The notes beneath the pieces were generated by a model. It was not told the origin of the DNA, did no database searches, and saw nothing but the letters and a program-made list of their open reading frames with translations. DNA of 64,000 bases from Bacteroidota bacterium (GTDB lineage Bacteria > Bacteroidota > Ignavibacteria > Ignavibacteriales > Ignavibacteriaceae). The number at the start of each line of letters is the position of its first letter. Position 1 is the first letter of the stretch. The position numbers were made by a program, and so were the translations under genes. Location: the NCBI GenBank assembly GCA_022564295.1, contig JADFLR010000006.1:62001-126000 (forward strand), given 5' to 3'. Below are positions 4,773 to 36,834 of the stretch, piece by piece.

Positions 4773-6318
4773 TGGAATTCCTTAAAAAATTAATGGTGTT
4801 CGGAAGATAATTTAACAATTCACCAGCCATTAATGAATATTCGGTTTTGCTGGCAACAAGCAGATCAGCCGTTAGACTGTGAATATAAACTGCTGAAACA
4901 ACCACCCTTTCAATATCATCATGTTGCGAAAGCAACCCGGCAATTGTTCCTGTTAAAACATCACCCGTTCCAAATTTAGCTAACGAAGGATTTCCTGATG
5001 AGTTTATTAATGCATCGCCGTTCGGAGTAAATATAATTGTGGGAGCACCTTTGAGAACTAAATACGCTCCCGTTTTGTTTACAAAATTACGCCCGTATTT
5101 AAGTACATCTTGCTTAAGAAGGGAAACAGATAGACCGATAAGATCTGCAAATTCTCCCATATGCGGTGTTAATACTGAATTCTTAAGATTAATATTATTA
5201 TACCTGTTTTTGTTTAGAGCAAAAACAGCATCTGCATCAATTATAATATTTCTGAAGTTTCTTTCCTTAAGTACTTTTATTACAGCGTTTTGTATTTTTT
5301 CACTTCTACTTATTCCGGGTCCGATTGTTACAACATCTGCCCATTTAATTTTCGGTAGCAACTCATCTACATTTTTCTCTGATAAGAAGCCGTTATTATC
5401 ATCTTCATAAGTTTGAACCACAACTTCGCCAAGTTTTTTTTGTATCAAATTTCGTATTGATTTTGGGAAGGCAAGGATAGATGCTCCCGCACCAATTTTT
5501 AGTGCAGCTTTTGATGTAAGAACTGCTGCTCCCGGGAAAGTTTCAGAACCGCAAATATTTAATACTTTACCCGCTGAGTATTTGTGAATGTTTTTTGCTT
5601 TTTTAGGCAAACCGATAAGTGCATCTTCAGGTTCAATCAGGTATTCCATTGTGTTTAATGTTTCAAGAAAATTATCCGAAATGCCTATACTTCCCCTTAC
5701 AATTTCACCCGCATAAGAATAACCATCGCCAAAAAATAATCCTTTCTTAAATCCGCCCAAAGTAATAGTTAAATCGGAATGAAATATATCTTCACCGTAT
5801 CCTTTATCTACATCCAAGCCTGTTGGAATATCAATGGCAACTTTAAATTTCTGCAGCCCGTTTAATGAATGAACGATAGATAAAAACGGTTCGCGTAGTT
5901 TTCCTTTTGTCCCACTGCCAAGAAGTGCATCACAAACTAAATCGTAGTTTTTTAGTGATGATAAAGTTTTTATGGATTTATATTTTGTAATTAAGAGATT
6001 CGAATGTGATTTTTCCATCTTCTTCAAAACAGAAAAATTTATTCTGCAATCGGGAGTCATCTCATTTTGACTTCCAAGATAGATTACTTTTACTTTATAA
6101 CCGGCATTTACAAAATGCCTTGCAGCAGCAAATCCATCCCCGCCGTTATTTCCTTTTCCGCAAACAAATCCAATGGAATTACTATCAAATGAATAAATTA
6201 TCTTTTCAAATATCTCTCTTGAAGCATTCTCCATCAACACAATACCCGGCAAGCCAAGCTTGCTGATAGCATAATCATCAATTCTACGTATTTGTTTTGT
6301 GGAATATAGAGGTATCAT
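4765..6318 (-). CDS. nnr: Bifunctional NAD(P)H-hydrate epimerase / ADP-dependent dehydratase
   Basis: 517 residues combining two metabolite-repair enzymes. The N-terminal YjeF epimerase domain (about 1-215) carries GKGNNGGDG at 54-62 and interconverts R- and S-NAD(P)HX. The C-terminal ribokinase-fold dehydratase (about 230-510) has GPGISRSE, LTPHMGEFADL and GTGDVLTGTIAG, the last being its nucleotide-binding and catalytic motif; it restores NAD(P)H from S-NAD(P)HX. The length matches bacterial fused Nnr proteins. It lies upstream of the vanZ-like gene, overlapping it, and 41 bases downstream of nuoN, so it could be read through from the nuo operon. Confidence 0.93.
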   Translation of the reverse strand: MIPLYSTKQIRRIDDYAISKLGLPGIVLMENASREIFEKIIYSFDSNSIGFVCGKGNNGGDGFAAARHFVNAGYKVKVIYLGSQNEMTPDCRINFSVLKKMEKSHSNLLITKYKSIKTLSSLKNYDLVCDALLGSGTKGKLREPFLSIVHSLNGLQKFKVAIDIPTGLDVDKGYGEDIFHSDLTITLGGFKKGLFFGDGYSYAGEIVRGSIGISDNFLETLNTMEYLIEPEDALIGLPKKAKNIHKYSAGKVLNICGSETFPGAAVLTSKAALKIGAGASILAFPKSIRNLIQKKLGEVVVQTYEDDNNGFLSEKNVDELLPKIKWADVVTIGPGISRSEKIQNAVIKVLKERNFRNIIIDADAVFALNKNRYNNINLKNSVLTPHMGEFADLIGLSVSLLKQDVLKYGRNFVNKTGAYLVLKGAPTIIFTPNGDALINSSGNPSLAKFGTGDVLTGTIAGLLSQHDDIERVVVSAVYIHSLTADLLVASKTEYSLMAGELLNYLPNTINFLRNSIV

Positions 6319-29950: not shown

Positions 29951-29980
29951 TTTTATAAATAACATTTGACGGAGAATAAG

Positions 29981-31969
29981 ATGTCTCAAACATTAATAGA
30001 AAAAATTGCCCAAAAATATGCAGTCGGTTTATCATCCGATCACGATGTTCATGCAGGGGATTATATTATGATACGACCGACTTATGTAATGACACATGAT
30101 AACACCGGAGCAGTAATTCCAAAGTTCAAATCCATCGGTGCAACACAACTCTTTAATCCAAGGCAAGTCGTACATACCTTAGATCACGACATTCAAAACA
30201 AAAGTGAAAAAAATTTAGAAAAGTACAGAAAGATCGAGGCATTTTCAAAAGAAATGGGCGCCGATTTTTATCCTGCCGGTAGAGGAATCGGTCACCAGAT
30301 TATGTGCGAAGAAGGTTATGCCTGGCCGGGTACTATGGTAGTTGCATCCGATAGTCATTCCAATATGTACGGCGGTTTGGGATGTTTGGGAACTCCGATT
30401 GTGCGTACGGATGCAGCAACAATCTGGGCAACGGGCAAAACGTGGTGGAAAGTCCCGCCGATTGCTAAAGTAGAATTTTTGGGCAGCTTGCATAAAGGTG
30501 TAACCGGCAAAGATGTGATTATCGCTTTATGCGGTTATTTCAATAACGATGAAGTTTTAAACCATGCGATTGAATTTATTGGTGAGGGTATAAAACATCT
30601 TTCGCTTAATGAAAGACTTACAATTGCGAATATGACCACAGAATGGGGTGCACTCGCAGGTGTCTATCCTATTGATGAAGTTACTGTTGATTGGTTGAAC
30701 AAAAGAAAGATATTTATTGAAGAAAGAGGTTTGGAAGGTGTTCCTTCTGATGAGGATGGAAAAGGAAAACATCCAAGAATAAATGAAGAAAGTATTTCCG
30801 AATTATGGAAATCCATGGCTTCACCAGAAAATAATATCATCAAAGCAGATGAAGATGCTTTTTATTCGAAAGAAATAATAATTGATCTCTCATCAATTGA
30901 ACCTTATGTATCAGGACCAAACTCGGTAAAGGTTATGACAAAAATTTCCGAGTTGAAAAAGAAAAACATAAAAATAGATAAAGCATATCTCGTTTCCTGC
31001 GTAAACAGCCGAGTTGAAGATATAAAACAAGCCGCGGAAGTTATAAGCGGAAAAAAAGTAGCTGATGGAGTTGAGTTTTACGTTGCTGCTGCATCAAGCG
31101 AAGTACAAACAGAATGTGAAAGACTGGGCTACTGGCAATCTCTTCTTGATGCAGGTGCAAAACCGCTTCCACCGGGATGCGGTCCGTGTATTGGTTTAGG
31201 TGTGGGATTGCTCGAAGATGGTGAAGTAGGAATTTCTGCAACAAACAGAAACTTCAAAGGAAGAATGGGTTCACCGACTGCTAAGGCATATTTGGCTTCC
31301 CCTGCTGTTGTTGCCGCATCTGCTGTTTCCGGTAAGATTGATTATGATTGGCAGAATGAAATTCTATCTATTAAAGGTGAAATTAAAGTGAACACAAAAT
31401 CTGGTGCTGATAAACCAAAGGTAAAAATCCTTGATGGTTTTCCTGAACTGATTGAAGGTGATTTGATATTCTGTCATCAGGATAATCTGAATACAGATGG
31501 AATTTACCCCGGTAAATACACTTACATAGATGACTTCACTCCGGAACAGCAAGCTGAAGTTGTTATGGAAAATTACGATCCTGAATTTAGTATGATTGCA
31601 AAGAAGGGAGACATCATTTCCGGTGGTTTCAATTTTGGAACCGGCAGTTCCCGCGAGCAAGCCGCTACATCACTTAAGTATAAAGGCATTGCTTGTATTA
31701 TCGCCGGATCATTCAGCGAAACATATAAACGGAATGCAATCAACAACGGTTTTTTGGTAATTGAATGCCCGGAACTCATCAACGATTTGAAAAAACAATT
31801 CGGAACTGAAAAATTAACAGTTCAAACAAATAAAAAAATAAGAATAGATTTTAAAAATTCTTCAATCTCTTTTGATGATAAGCAATACTCCATTGATCCT
31901 GTTGGTGAAGCAGCACAGGAGATAATCATTGCCGGTGGGTTGGAGAGTTGGGTGAAAGGTAAACTCTAA
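29981..31969 (+). CDS. Aconitase, homoaconitase (Lys4)-like subtype
   Basis: 662 residues from the ATG at 29981 with GGAG upstream; a TTG five codons earlier is less likely. The dehydratase domain holds PTYVMTHDNTGAV, SDSHSNMYGGLGCLGTPI and TWWKVPPIAKVEFLG, the last typical of Lys4-type homoaconitases. Cluster cysteines are visible in LVSCVNSR and PPGCGPCIGLG. The C-terminal swivel domain (from about 490) contains GSSREQAATSLKYKGI. It should interconvert citrate and isocitrate, or a homologous acid, through a [4Fe-4S] cluster. Placement beside the isocitrate-type dehydrogenase and citrate lyase favours citrate. Confidence 0.85.
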   Translation: MSQTLIEKIAQKYAVGLSSDHDVHAGDYIMIRPTYVMTHDNTGAVIPKFKSIGATQLFNPRQVVHTLDHDIQNKSEKNLEKYRKIEAFSKEMGADFYPAGRGIGHQIMCEEGYAWPGTMVVASDSHSNMYGGLGCLGTPIVRTDAATIWATGKTWWKVPPIAKVEFLGSLHKGVTGKDVIIALCGYFNNDEVLNHAIEFIGEGIKHLSLNERLTIANMTTEWGALAGVYPIDEVTVDWLNKRKIFIEERGLEGVPSDEDGKGKHPRINEESISELWKSMASPENNIIKADEDAFYSKEIIIDLSSIEPYVSGPNSVKVMTKISELKKKNIKIDKAYLVSCVNSRVEDIKQAAEVISGKKVADGVEFYVAAASSEVQTECERLGYWQSLLDAGAKPLPPGCGPCIGLGVGLLEDGEVGISATNRNFKGRMGSPTAKAYLASPAVVAASAVSGKIDYDWQNEILSIKGEIKVNTKSGADKPKVKILDGFPELIEGDLIFCHQDNLNTDGIYPGKYTYIDDFTPEQQAEVVMENYDPEFSMIAKKGDIISGGFNFGTGSSREQAATSLKYKGIACIIAGSFSETYKRNAINNGFLVIECPELINDLKKQFGTEKLTVQTNKKIRIDFKNSSISFDDKQYSIDPVGEAAQEIIIAGGLESWVKGKL

Positions 31970-32040: not shown

Positions 32041-34527
32041 ATGACAGAACCCAAAGAATTTATTAATAAACTTAGAGAAGATATAGAAGATTCTAATGAA
32101 ATTGTCTTAAAATCTTTATCTGGTGCAATTGATAGATTGCAGAAAGCTTTTCCAAGGTATGAAAGTTTTTTAATGGAATTTCTTCAAAATGCAGATGATG
32201 AAAATAGTAGTAGTTTTATAGTTCACCTAAAAGATGACTCTCTCATTATATCTAATGATGGAAATCCATTTTCAGAAAGAAATATTCAAAGTCTATGTTC
32301 AGTCGCCGATTCAGATAAATTATTGGATAATTATATCGGGTATCTTGGGGTGGGCTTCAAGTCAGTATTTCTAATTTCAGATTTAGTCCAAGTATCTTCC
32401 TATCCTTATAATTTTAGTTTTTCTAAGTCTCATTGGGTTAAAAATAAATTCCCTTGGCAAATCACCCCAATTTGGGAAGGTGATTTCATTGAAACTCCTG
32501 ATAATTCCAAAACAAATTATTTTATCAAAATAAAATCTGAATCTTTCATTAAGCAAATTCAACAAGAGTTAACAACCTCTCATATTAATAATCGTATTTT
32601 ATTATTTTTAAAAAATATAAAGTCAATAACTTTTATTGATGATGTAAATAGTAATAAACGTGAATTTAGCAAATCCCTTATAGAAAAAACTGATAATTAT
32701 GCAATTTGGTCAATAACTGAAGGTGAAACATGCGAAAAATGGTTGGTTATAAAAGAAGAATATATAGTGCCAAATGAAGTAAAGAAGGATCAAATAACAA
32801 TCGATTGGGAAAGAGCAGAGGTGAAGGTTCGGGAACTTTCAGCAGTTTTTAAGCTTAATGATTTACATAATATAATTCCTGTATTTAAGGCAACAGCTCA
32901 TATAGGTGTTTTTAGTTTTATTCCACTTAGAGAAGTTGAAAGCGGTCTTAAATTTTTAGTTCAGGGAGATTTCATTACCAATCTTGGCAGAGGTGATATT
33001 GATAGAGATTGTTTATGGAATAACTGGATTGCAAATCAAATATTTAATTTAATAATCAATAAATGTATTCCTATTTTCAAAACAAATGATAAATGGAAAT
33101 ATAATTTTACAAATATTTTATACCCATTTGATCCTTCAACTGGTCATACTCTGTTCATTGAAAAAATACTTAAGCCAATAAAAGCCTTCTTAGAAGAAGA
33201 AGATGTTTTTCTTACAGAGAAAAATGGATATAAGAAAAAAGACAATGTGATTTGGTTAGATGCTGCTTTTATAGATTTATTAACAGACGATGATACCTCT
33301 TTTCTATTCCCTAATAAAAAATTATTAAATAGAAATTGCAATACTTATTTAAATGAATATCAAGATAAAATTTATCCTTCTGAATATAACCCTTTTGCTT
33401 ATGATAAGTTTGGTAAAGAATTGTTTGAATATAAAGCATCATTAAAAGATTCAGACTGGTTTAATAATTTTTATGCCTACATGTTAAAAAAGTATAACAA
33501 ATCTTATTTTCATCAATATTCTCAACATAATGTTAAACACGATTCTTTCTGGAATGATTTAGCTTCAACAAAAAAAGAGTTTATACTAACCGAAGATTTT
33601 TCTCTATCCTCACCCCATAATTCCTACACTAATCCAGATAATTTGGAAATTCCTCCTCTAATTAAAAAGACATTGAAAGTGGTTAACACAAACTTATTAA
33701 TTAACCCTAATTTCGAAGCATTTAAGAAATATTTAATTCACACTCGATTTATTCATAAAAACAAATCAGAATGTTTTAAAAAAATAAATCATCAGTTGAT
33801 CACTAATACTTTATTAGAGAACGAAGCCTTAAAATTAACGGAAGCTGATTGGATTAGTAAAAACGAAGATGAAAAAGTTAAATTTATTCTCGTTCTAATT
33901 TCATTACTTAATAAAATTAAATTTGATGATTACAATTTTTTAACTCTTCCATCCAAATCCGGCACATGGTTAAATCCCAAAGAACTTTTTCTATCCTCAG
34001 AATATGACCCGGAAACTCATCATTTAGAAAAAATTAAAGACGAGGGTTTTTTAGATTTAAGAGTCGAATTCTTGTCTCCTGTTTTCATCACTAAAGCAGA
34101 AACTATTAATAAAAGTCAACTAAGAAAATTTTTTAGAAATTTAGGTGTAGATGACCAAAAAAAAGAAAAAAAATTTACAGAGCGAATAGCAGTCCTTAAG
34201 GTATTAAAATATGAATTAGATGAAGGAAGAATAGCTCGTGAGCTTGGTGGTTCTGAAAAACCCGGTTATGATATAGAATCGACTAATGGATCAATAAAAA
34301 GGTTGATAGAAGTAAAAGGAAGCAGAGATTCAAAACCTAATATTTTTTTGACATCTGGTGAATATACAACATTGTTCAATAATCCAGATAAGTATTATGT
34401 TTATGTTGTTTCCGAAGCAAGTAAATCACCGATAATTCATATTATCCCTGGAAAAAATCTTTTAGAAATAGATGAAACCAATGTGACTTTTGATTTTAAT
34501 AAATGGTATCCTAAAAAACTTAATTGA
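32041..34527 (+). CDS. Sacsin-like GHKL ATPase with C-terminal DUF3883 domain
   Basis: 828 residues. The N-terminal Hsp90/MORC-type ATPase has its N-box ESFLMEFLQNADDE (43-55), G1 ISNDGNPF (70-77) and G2 YIGYLGVGFKSVF (98-110). A long middle (about 250-700) is helical and unrecognised. The C-terminus (about 715-825) is a DUF3883 (NO VEIN-type) domain with GYDIES and LIEVKGSR, the D...E.K pattern of PD-(D/E)XK nuclease folds. Such pairs are common in phage-defence islands, where the ATPase may sense and the nuclease may cleave DNA. Its function here is inferred. It stands alone, breaking the aconitase-prpD gene order, and its codon choice is strongly A+T-rich. Confidence 0.8.
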   Translation: MTEPKEFINKLREDIEDSNEIVLKSLSGAIDRLQKAFPRYESFLMEFLQNADDENSSSFIVHLKDDSLIISNDGNPFSERNIQSLCSVADSDKLLDNYIGYLGVGFKSVFLISDLVQVSSYPYNFSFSKSHWVKNKFPWQITPIWEGDFIETPDNSKTNYFIKIKSESFIKQIQQELTTSHINNRILLFLKNIKSITFIDDVNSNKREFSKSLIEKTDNYAIWSITEGETCEKWLVIKEEYIVPNEVKKDQITIDWERAEVKVRELSAVFKLNDLHNIIPVFKATAHIGVFSFIPLREVESGLKFLVQGDFITNLGRGDIDRDCLWNNWIANQIFNLIINKCIPIFKTNDKWKYNFTNILYPFDPSTGHTLFIEKILKPIKAFLEEEDVFLTEKNGYKKKDNVIWLDAAFIDLLTDDDTSFLFPNKKLLNRNCNTYLNEYQDKIYPSEYNPFAYDKFGKELFEYKASLKDSDWFNNFYAYMLKKYNKSYFHQYSQHNVKHDSFWNDLASTKKEFILTEDFSLSSPHNSYTNPDNLEIPPLIKKTLKVVNTNLLINPNFEAFKKYLIHTRFIHKNKSECFKKINHQLITNTLLENEALKLTEADWISKNEDEKVKFILVLISLLNKIKFDDYNFLTLPSKSGTWLNPKELFLSSEYDPETHHLEKIKDEGFLDLRVEFLSPVFITKAETINKSQLRKFFRNLGVDDQKKEKKFTERIAVLKVLKYELDEGRIARELGGSEKPGYDIESTNGSIKRLIEVKGSRDSKPNIFLTSGEYTTLFNNPDKYYVYVVSEASKSPIIHIIPGKNLLEIDETNVTFDFNKWYPKKLN

Positions 34528-34546
34528 ATAATTTGTAAAACATCAA

Positions 34547-34626
34547 TAGAACGCAGATGACACAGATTATTTATGATCAGTGCAGATCATAATCAATCAT
34601 AACAATCAGCGTTGCATTGTGTTCTC
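34547..34626. repeat. Interspersed repeat, copy B, inverted relative to copy A
   Basis: Begins TAGAACGCAGATGACACAGA, the exact complement of the end of copy A (29931-29953). GATCAG and GATCAT palindromes follow and the segment ends in GCGTTGCATTGTGTTCT. It lies just after the GHKL/DUF3883 gene, so copies A and B bracket the aconitase and that gene as an inverted pair 4.6 kb apart. Confidence 0.7.
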
Positions 34627-34640
34627 ATATAGGATTAAAT

Positions 34641-34742
34641 ATGCAAAAATCAATCTCACGCCAAATAGCAGAATTCGCAATCAAACTTAAGTACGAAGAC
34701 CTACCTGAAGAAGTTATTCACGTAATTACAAATTCTTTATGA
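34641..34742 (+). pseudogene. Duplicated 5' fragment of prpD
   Basis: The first 33 codons of an MmgE/PrpD gene: 66 bases differ from the intact gene start at 35401 at only five positions, all synonymous, and the protein match continues to about residue 30 (KLKYEDLP.EVI). A TGA at 34740-34742 ends it. Its ATG keeps the AGGATTAAAT leader, whereas the intact prpD has no comparable ribosome site. The TGA overlaps the ATG of the ORF6N gene (34739). The synonymous pattern shows it came from a related prpD allele rather than from a very recent tandem copy. Confidence 0.85.
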
Positions 34743-35260
34743 AAGCAAAATCAGTAATACCAACAGAAAATGCAATAAATAAAATCCTTATCATCAGAAA
34801 TCAAAAAGTGATTCTTGATAGAGACCTGGCATTGCTATATAAAGTTGAAACACGCGCATTGAAACAAGCTGTTAAAAGGAATATTAAAAGATTTCCACCT
34901 GATTTTATGTTTGTTCTATTCAAAAAGGAAATTGATCTATTGGTATCACAAAATGTGATACCATCTAAAAGTTACCTTGGTGGTGCAAATCCAATGGCAT
35001 TTACCGAACAAAGTGTTGCAATGCTTTCTTCTGTTCTGAAAAGTGAAAGAGCTATTGAAGTCAATATTCTAATAATGCGGGCTTTTGTAAAACTTCGAGA
35101 AATTATTTCAACACATAAAAAAGTTGAGGAAAAGCTTAAAGAAATTGAAAGCAAACTAAAAGAACACGATGATCAAATTGTTCAGATAATTCAAGTAATA
35201 AATCAACTAATTACGCCGCCTGCTTCTCCCAAAAAGAAAATAGGTTTTAGTATTGATTAA
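34739..35260 (+). CDS. ORF6N-domain (KilA-N-like) protein
   Basis: 173 residues. The ORF6N domain occupies about residues 10-100: IRNQKVILDRDLALLYKVET, VKRNIKRFPPDFMFVL and AFTEQSVAMLSSVLKSERAIEVN, all standard for the family. A C-terminal coiled coil (about 115-150) follows, then a basic tail. The family is shared by phages and Bacteroidota mobile islands; it is thought to bind DNA, but its role is unknown. Its ATG overlaps the TGA of the captured prpD fragment (ATGA), so ribosomes starting on the prpD leader could re-initiate here. Confidence 0.88.
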   Translation: MKAKSVIPTENAINKILIIRNQKVILDRDLALLYKVETRALKQAVKRNIKRFPPDFMFVLFKKEIDLLVSQNVIPSKSYLGGANPMAFTEQSVAMLSSVLKSERAIEVNILIMRAFVKLREIISTHKKVEEKLKEIESKLKEHDDQIVQIIQVINQLITPPASPKKKIGFSID

Positions 35261-35297
35261 TTATAATAAATTGCAGCATAAATGATTTAAAAACTGC

Positions 35298-35345
35298 TAT
35301 CACAAAACGTGATACCATCAAAAATTGGAAATCACAAACTGTGAT
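35298..35345. repeat. Short inverted repeats related to a site inside the ORF6N gene
   Basis: Two palindromes lie between ORF6N and prpD: TATCACAAAACGTGATA (35298-35314) and ATCACAAACTGTGAT (35331-35345). The same pattern TATCACAAAATGTGATA occurs within the ORF6N coding region (34944-34960). In both cases CCATC(T/A)AAAA follows, so the downstream block may be a decayed copy of the ORF6N gene (it would read LLSQNVIPSK). An operator role is another possibility. Confidence 0.6.
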
Positions 35346-35400
35346 GTCCAAACAAGAGAAAAATATTTTAAATAAAAAAACAATTCGACAATAAAATATT

Positions 35401-36834
35401 ATGCAAAAATCAATCTCAAGACAAATAGCAGAATTCGCAATCAAACTTAAATATGAGGACCTACCTTCAGAAGTAATTAATGAAGTAAAAAGATATCTTT
35501 ACGATTCAATCGGATGTGCCTACGGCGGTTATCACACAAAGGATGTTAACATTTTAAGAGATATCTACAAAGATATGGCGGGAAAAGAAGAAGCAACCCT
35601 CATCGGGTTCGGTGATAAAATTCCTGCTGTAAACGCAACTCTTGTTAATTCATTAATGATACGCGCTTTGGATTTCAATGATATCTACTGGAAAGAAGAT
35701 CCATCCCATCCATCTGATATAATTCCCGCTGCATTTTCAGTTGGTGAAATGGTTGACGCATCAATGAAAGAGGTAATTACAGCAATTGTTCTTGCTTACG
35801 AATTTGAACAAAGATTATGTTTGTTCGCAACTCCGGGTGTGCGTGAACGCAAATGGCATCACGCCACATTAACACAGTTTGTTTCTCCGATTGTTGCAGG
35901 AAAACTCTTAGGTTTAAATGAAGATCAAATGGTAAATGCAATTGGAATAAACGGAAGCCATAATCATACAATCGGATGCCCCACAGCAGGTAAATTAACT
36001 ATGATGAAAAACACCGTTGATCCAATGGCAGTACAGAGCGGAGTGTTTGCAGCGTTGATGGCTCAAAAAGGTTATAGCGGAACGGAAGCAGTCTTTGAAG
36101 GGAAAGAAGGATTTATGGATACTTTTCTAGGCTGGAATGCAAAGAATCAAGAAGTGAATTCTGTGCAGATTGAAGGCAGAGATGGATTAAGCAAATGGGG
36201 TTGGAATATTGATGCTTTAGTTAGTGGATTGGGTGAAAGTTATAAAATTATGGAATGCAGTATGAAAACATTTCCTACAGAAGCATTAACTCACACTCAT
36301 CTATCGGCAACATTAAATGTTGTAACAACAAACAACATCAGTTATGATCAGATAGAATCCGTTACATTAACTACGTTGGCACAAGCTTATGATATCCTTT
36401 TCGATCCGCACAAATACAGACCAGAATCCCGTGAGACAGCAGATCACTCACTCCCCTATTGTATTGCCGTAGCTTTGGTTGATCATAAAATTACCACACA
36501 GTCATTCAGTGATGAGAAATTAAAAGACCCGCGAATCTGGGAAGTGATTGATAAAATAAAAGGCGAGCCGTCCGAAGAATTTGAAAAGATGTTCCCGGCA
36601 AAGCAGCCATCAAAAGTTGTTGTAAAAACCAAAGATGGAAAAGAATATTCAGAATATCTTGAATATCCGAAGGGTGATCCAAGAGAACCGATGACGATGG
36701 AAGATCTTGAGAATAAGTTCAATTCATTATCAGCCAAACTGTTAACAGATAGGAGACAAAAAGAAATTAAAGAGATGATATTCAGTTGTGAGAACATGAC
36801 AATAAAAGATTTTATGAATAAATTAATTGTTTAA
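35401..36834 (+). CDS. MmgE/PrpD-family protein (2-methylcitrate dehydratase-like)
   Basis: 477 residues, the usual length of the iron-free PrpD family. RALDFNDIYWKEDPSHPSDI is the active-site region with the conserved D/H and SHPSD motif; GINGSHNHTIGCPTAGKL, MMKNTVDPMA and the C-terminal ADHSLPYCIAVAL are further signatures. PrpD dehydrates 2-methylcitrate and can act on citrate. Citrate lyase genes lie directly downstream, so action on citrate-type acids is likely. No Shine-Dalgarno is visible before the ATG, because the native leader remains with the upstream fragment at 34641. Confidence 0.87.
   Translation: MQKSISRQIAEFAIKLKYEDLPSEVINEVKRYLYDSIGCAYGGYHTKDVNILRDIYKDMAGKEEATLIGFGDKIPAVNATLVNSLMIRALDFNDIYWKEDPSHPSDIIPAAFSVGEMVDASMKEVITAIVLAYEFEQRLCLFATPGVRERKWHHATLTQFVSPIVAGKLLGLNEDQMVNAIGINGSHNHTIGCPTAGKLTMMKNTVDPMAVQSGVFAALMAQKGYSGTEAVFEGKEGFMDTFLGWNAKNQEVNSVQIEGRDGLSKWGWNIDALVSGLGESYKIMECSMKTFPTEALTHTHLSATLNVVTTNNISYDQIESVTLTTLAQAYDILFDPHKYRPESRETADHSLPYCIAVALVDHKITTQSFSDEKLKDPRIWEVIDKIKGEPSEEFEKMFPAKQPSKVVVKTKDGKEYSEYLEYPKGDPREPMTMEDLENKFNSLSAKLLTDRRQKEIKEMIFSCENMTIKDFMNKLIV

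Follow-up and report, generated by a model that had tools for sequence, protein, structure and literature searches.

The locus described here raises the question of how the start of one gene came to lie directly in front of another, with an intact copy of the first gene behind it. It is found in a stretch of 64,000 nucleotides (the window, always meaning this whole stretch) from a 4.07 Mb genome (G000), where the gene order on the plus strand is aconitase (29966–31969) and a sacsin/NOV_C protein (32041–34527), both assigned by Pfam, a 33-codon prpD start (34641–34742), an ORF6N gene of 173 aa (34739–35260), an intact MmgE/PrpD-family gene (35401–36834) and then citrate lyase-type genes. The product of the intact gene belongs to the MmgE/PrpD family according to Pfam but falls far below the NCBIfam PrpD cut-offs, and the name prpD is used loosely here. 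An earlier note on this DNA had described the fragment and the ATGA overlap between its stop and the start codon of ORF6N; coordinates, repeat and overlap were all confirmed, and between the fragment and prpD no plus-strand ORF of at least 30 aa other than ORF6N was found.

When comparing the fragment with the intact gene a direct repeat was seen (34640–34731 and 35400–35491, 85% identity over 92 nt), and the junction gave a local score of 125 against nt 1–150 of prpD, the maximum in 30 shuffles being 31. Within nt 1–66 there are five nucleotide differences, all of them synonymous as had been claimed, with the same residue in 22 of 22 codons (pN 0.02, pS 0.30), while from codon 23 onward the fragment is increasingly unlike prpD. 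The synonymy fits two once-functional alleles and in this respect agrees with the proposal that the fragment derives from a diverged, functional prpD, but five changes are too few to settle the matter. AGGA precedes the ATG of the fragment and the leader of the intact gene has no SD-like motif, as stated earlier; the contrast is nevertheless weak, since such motifs stand ahead of only 11 of the 42 mechanically listed window ORFs of at least 150 aa (background 8%).

The comparison covered 87 loci containing a prpD start, 68 of which have aconitase upstream; most of the records are metagenome assemblies. In the prpD tree the window is nearest to L065 (labelled Bacteroidetes bacterium), L064 (bacterium BMS3Abin03) and L066 (Ignavibacterium sp.), the closest relatives reaching 88% in prpD protein. 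L065 is the sister of the window (96/84) and has the fragment-ORF6N junction in common with it. An assembly artefact was considered and is unlikely because L065, a separate assembly, shows the same junction. The fragment of L065 has pN about equal to pS over nt 1–78 (0.23 and 0.25).

A search for empty sites in relatives, as the earlier note had advised, did yield them: 28 of the 68 aconitase-prpD loci have a gap of 135 nt or less, as estimated from tblastn ends. In L066, where the aconitase end and the native leader adjoin, positions 5906–6072 (an empty junction including the first 72 nt of its prpD) align at 78% with window positions 34545–34712, which identifies 34545–34640 as the native aconitase-prpD leader now standing before the fragment; the empty site of L126 has a similar leader. 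As the fragment carries the native leader of an empty site, it is, judging from these alignments, the original start left in its original place, the regenerated copy being the intact one that begins at 35401. The view of the fragment as captured must thus be reversed, whereas regeneration of prpD downstream of the insert holds, an intact gene following the insert here and relatives showing both empty sites and the same architecture. The leader of the intact prpD in the window is rich in AACAAT units and unlike the native one. Such a leader is also present behind ORF6N in L065, L071, L011 and L074, and L073 and L077 have it at their empty sites. A common leader precedes both fragments and the intact gene in L064, and the duplication there therefore includes the leader.

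The sacsin/NOV_C protein (828 aa) partially matches the PADLOC models of TmtA (E 1.2e-76), which we take to be the Tiamat defence protein. A single island made up of this Tiamat-like (DUF3883) gene and ORF6N was considered and rejected: the gene lies upstream of the native leader, which stands between the two, and it is therefore a second, separate insert at the same junction. Tiamat-like DNA is found at this junction in L083 as well (84% identical). In that locus both positions 660–726 and the sequence from 955 match the end of the aconitase gene of the window, as if the aconitase end had been duplicated ahead of the Tiamat-like gene.

Fragments of the prpD start, counted when above shuffled controls and kept on inspection, were found in nine of the 68 loci: the window, L064 (two copies), L065, L011, L071, L074, L010, L083 and L124. 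Eleven full junctions had scored above their 30 shuffles, from which L122 (34 vs 30) and L094 (26 vs 24), neither with tblastn support, were dropped; L010 (31 vs 28) was kept because of support from tblastn and inspection, and L071 (46 vs 33; start lost, no tblastn hit) after inspection. L129 (30 vs 28) was also above its shuffles, has no aconitase and lies outside the 68. The fragment precedes ORF6N in five of the nine loci (the ORF6N gene of L065 being broken by a stop), what reads as an ORF6N remnant in L074, RhuM in L010 and L083, DUF433/DUF5615 in the first copy of L064 and prpD itself in L124, while L088 has ORF6N and no detectable fragment. The fragment therefore belongs to the target and not to ORF6N, to which the earlier note had tied it. 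That note had also named a fragment lacking ORF6N as evidence against its reading; L124 comes close to this, but its junction holds two other minus-strand genes. Close kin in the prpD tree differ in what they carry (L010 RhuM, L071 ORF6N, L124 the fragment only, L126 and L073 short gaps), the aconitase-prpD junction being a hot spot where several such genes have inserted.

The fragments end at varying points, from about nt 53 to about nt 104 of prpD, and no constant crossover core was found at their ends, which differ between events. The two copies of the prpD start differ by at least 10% at the prpD locus. The prpD fragments of L010 (near 297) and L124 (near 5954) contain, at a similar place, a small palindrome CCCGAC..GTC(A/G)GG. 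It was also considered whether the fragment is part of a mobile ORF6N cassette, and this was rejected: when the flanks of 93 ORF6N genes were searched with a DNA profile of the prpD start, an upstream copy appeared only in the window, L011 and L064 (E up to 1e-5), all at prpD, the next upstream match being L172 with E 0.11.

The same architecture was found at another, unrelated gene. In G043 an oxidoreductase start, comprising AGGAGG and about 15 codons, has been copied ahead of a RhuM gene, and the intact oxidoreductase gene comes next; G085 is arranged in the same way. Gene ends are duplicated as well: in L063, L161, L162 and L172 the end of the upstream gene is copied behind ORF6N, and in L164 the end of a convergent neighbour is duplicated at ORF6N (65 nt, 98.5%). 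Among 14 ORF6N genes with closely flanking repeats (22 to 141 nt long), reading assigned four to prpD starts, five to gene ends and five to no called gene edge. The proposal that the island targets the prpD start is right in so far as the insert lies within that start, but it is too narrow, since gene ends and intergenic DNA are duplicated elsewhere. Two repeats appear fresh: a 36-nt repeat (100%) around an ORF6N gene of G038, present in two copies in that genome with no third copy found at up to 3 mismatches, and an 81-nt repeat (98%) around a GxxExxY gene in the window's own genome, with only two copies. These two and the prpD start represent target DNA and no dispersed family, while some other flanking repeats look dispersed. 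The GxxExxY gene flanked by the 81-nt repeat (L259, contig C9) sits between genes read as acylphosphatase-like and IspF-like.

Other arrangements were also seen. In L048/L202 ORF6N lies inside a second copy of the 3' end of the neighbouring gene, splitting that copy with a few bases lost, and in L043 several ORF6N genes follow one another as an array whose flanks are partly repeated. At the L178 site no alignment across the repeat was achieved in the nearest relative.

Tight repeats, defined as direct repeats with each copy within 250 nt of the gene, flank 14 of 89 ORF6N, 6 of 26 GxxExxY, 3 of 25 RhuM, 1 of 26 23S_rRNA_IVP and 0 of 27 ABC genes, the 30 loci of each comparison family being best-scoring matches and not a random sample; five loci contain more than one ORF6N gene and the counts are therefore not fully independent. 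Short flanks or a missing ORF led to the omission of 4 of 93 ORF6N genes and of 5, 4, 4 and 3 of 30 for RhuM, GxxExxY, IVP and ABC, respectively, and the ORF was chosen as the longest across the match, which may be wrong in a few cases (e.g. L279). In a set of 250 other genes taken from related loci, a slightly laxer rule yielded tight repeats at four, giving p values of 4e-6 for ORF6N, 6e-5 for GxxExxY, 0.018 for RhuM and 0.39 for IVP. One of these four controls is a PIN gene located at the same aconitase-prpD junction in L086, and another, in L071, reads as a REP-type transposase. Against ABC alone the excess is weak (p 0.04 for ORF6N, 0.01 for GxxExxY, 0.10 for RhuM and 0.49 for IVP), and the 23S_rRNA_IVP genes, with their single case among 26, show none. 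After collapsing the prpD hits and those at one peptidase gene, ORF6N retains 10 of 85 (p 3e-4). A looser, earlier test counting any repeat in 1000-nt flanks gave 22 of 89 ORF6N genes vs 9 of 157 other genes. Since several GxxExxY repeats read as dispersed intergenic elements, the GxxExxY class is mixed. Among the 59 searched genomes, single genomes had up to 20 matches to 23S rRNA intervening-sequence protein genes and up to 11 to GxxExxY.

The best explanation is probably an insertion with a long and variable target duplication, followed by selection that keeps the hit gene whole. In favour of this are the empty junctions, the native leader on the fragment, the junction shared with L065, the other cargo behind the prpD start, the second target gene, the excess of flanking repeats, the two fresh two-copy repeats, the failure to find prpD sequence beyond codon 35 at the occupied junctions (given below) and the PDC-S05 matches of both ORF6N and RhuM. 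A single ORF6N gene would have entered a prpD-like gene within its 5' end, with about 80–105 nt of the prpD start becoming duplicated on both sides of the insert, presumably during the insertion itself. The upstream copy, still behind its own leader, would be the original start and would now form a short ORF that runs up to the ATG of ORF6N, and the downstream copy would restore an intact prpD. The moving unit may be little more than the ORF, no recombinase gene having been recognised in the insert, and selection would retain the insertions whose duplication makes the hit gene whole again. An insert in a gene edge can be borne as long as the gene is rebuilt by the duplication, which would explain why starts are found before the cargo and ends behind it. 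Against this view, a tight repeat is found at only 14 of the 89 ORF6N genes, although decay may hide others. The lack of an excess at 23S_rRNA_IVP genes, the weak excess relative to ABC genes alone and the divergence of the two prpD copies also count against it. The fragment of the window looks too well kept for a neutral relic dating back to the divergence from L065, and this needs later recombination; its history was likely an early insertion, after which recombination renewed the fragment.

The main rival, which we consider possible rather than probable, is one-sided homologous transfer (homology-facilitated illegitimate recombination), in which a donor with ORF6N cleanly upstream of prpD is joined by homology within prpD on the right and illegitimately within the prpD start of the recipient on the left, so that the fragment would be the recipient's start and the intact start the donor's. 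The native leader on the fragment and the synonymy of all differences in 66 nt agree with this, and L088, with ORF6N and no detectable fragment, has the required donor form. In the prpD tree, moreover, the hosts lie apart, yet their ORF6N copies at prpD are mostly mutual kin (five of seven rows of one clade), suggesting that locus-specific transfer took place in addition to fresh insertion. By itself, however, such a transfer gives no account of the identical two-copy repeats around inserts elsewhere, and the prpD of the window shows a sliding identity with no clear donor tract. At the prpD locus it may act as well as target duplication, and the probabilities assigned to the two therefore overlap.

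Another reading, which we find fairly unlikely, is that the fragment persists chiefly because, as a leader ORF, it sets the translation of ORF6N, its insertion history being incidental. The overlap of the fragment stop with the ORF6N ATG in the window, the sequence TTATGAC at the same place in L065, the ATGA overlap of fragment and prpD ATG in L124 and the conserved codons of the window fragment all speak for it, and translational coupling of fragment and ORF6N is possible in the window and L065, as far as sequence alone can indicate; the fragment would then drive the translation of ORF6N. Elsewhere, however, the fragment ORF stops short of the cargo ATG, by 15 nt in L064 (second copy), 18 nt in L011, 25 nt in L083, 7 nt in L010 and 137 nt in the first copy of L064, so that coupling is not general. 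The start is furthermore lost in L071 and the codons are decayed in L065.

We tentatively offer a further idea, rather unlikely as it stands, that promoterless single-gene defence candidates spread by a recombinase-free mobility joining their start codon to an out-of-frame ATG in a duplicated host gene start, one step thereby giving the insert host translation signals and rebuilding the host gene. In G043 and G085 the homology runs exactly through the AATG of the target into the ATG of RhuM. A gapped alignment places the ORF6N start codon at prpD nt 101 in both the window and L011, a position where an out-of-frame ATG is present in 52% of 87 prpD genes; in L065 (ungapped alignment) it is two nt short of this position, and L083 and L064 do not fit. 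The pattern is thus clear only in G043/G085 and fair for the window and L011, the ends of short, diverged fragments aligning with uncertainty.

A relic of a tandem prpD duplication, the first copy of which was replaced or deleted after insertion of ORF6N, would account for a prpD start in the same orientation but is very improbable, as no prpD sequence beyond codon 35 was found at E up to 1 in 40 junctions longer than 150 nt and the same pattern occurs at another gene and at gene ends. An integrase-type island with its attachment site at the prpD start is scarcely credible, for although the gene is regenerated at one end of the insert, ORF6N is the sole plus-strand ORF of at least 30 aa there and both the fragment ends and the cargo vary.

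The inserted gene matches Pfam PF10543 (E 1.2e-28, 99.6 bits against a cut-off of 27.8) and the PADLOC PDC-S05 models (E 5.6e-55), which the RhuM cargo also matches, and it is by these matches a candidate defence gene. According to the available part of PMC12988326, such PDCs are unvalidated candidates. When compared with the genes in L071, L088, L064 and L011, values of pN 0.11–0.16 and pS 0.57–0.67 were obtained (pN/pS about 0.17–0.26), indicating that ORF6N is under purifying selection. Searches of PDB and NCBIfam with ORF6N gave nothing useful, and the structure predicted from four sequences had a pLDDT of 50.

When analysing the coding sequences, a palindrome (10-nt arms, at most 1 mismatch, loop below 8) was found in 85 of 93 ORF6N genes, the window included, vs 16 of 93 codon-shuffled copies. 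In the window it lies at 34941–34963 and folds as an RNA hairpin (z -5.4), and palindromes recur at this place across ORF6N genes. An SQ motif at residues 50–120 is present in 54 of the 93 genes; in these, 86% of the arm positions pair, vs at most 73% in 1000 shuffles, and the arms show A-T/G-C exchanges on both sides, i.e. compensating changes, with a shuffle that ignores relatedness. The palindrome could be an operator or an RNA element. Two palindromes of the same kind lie behind the ORF6N stop, in a non-coding stretch (35289–35352, plus strand) which by reading resembles an internally deleted ORF6N copy in L074.

Insertion with long and variable target duplication has been reported for restriction-modification genes (Nobusato et al. 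2000, as described in the available parts of PMC1643837 and PMC3031569). As far as these descriptions go, the present cases are alike in the long, variable duplications and the defence-linked cargo and differ in that the cargo consists of single ORF6N, RhuM or GxxExxY genes and that some repeats are gene starts ahead of the cargo ATG; the cargo is not a restriction-modification system, and the likeness covers the insertion pattern only. Homology-facilitated illegitimate recombination, discussed for Vibrio T6SS gene arrays (PMC5361080), likewise leaves parts of a resident gene beside new genes (PMC5361080, PMC2884548), but on the portions available it needs a donor with the cargo already beside the target and alone gives no identical local repeats. 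The ORF6N and RhuM cargo, both matching PDC-S05, resemble the single-gene candidates of that group, and how such genes enter genomes is not described in the part of PMC12988326 at hand. A literature search of incomplete coverage returned no report of the flanking-repeat and start-duplication pattern for ORF6N.

Gene-regenerating integrase islands restore their target gene at one end. This feature is shared by the present locus, which differs from them in its one-gene cargo, with no integrase seen and no constant core.

To our knowledge, the way in which single-gene immune candidates enter genomes is largely open. The cases described here give this entry a visible footprint, with long target duplications at genes of the ORF6N, GxxExxY and RhuM families, with starts of hit genes that were restored once the insert was in place, and with one junction where the cargo differs between close relatives. 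They extend the pattern reported for restriction-modification genes to other defence candidates and supply a sequence signature by which any genome can be searched.
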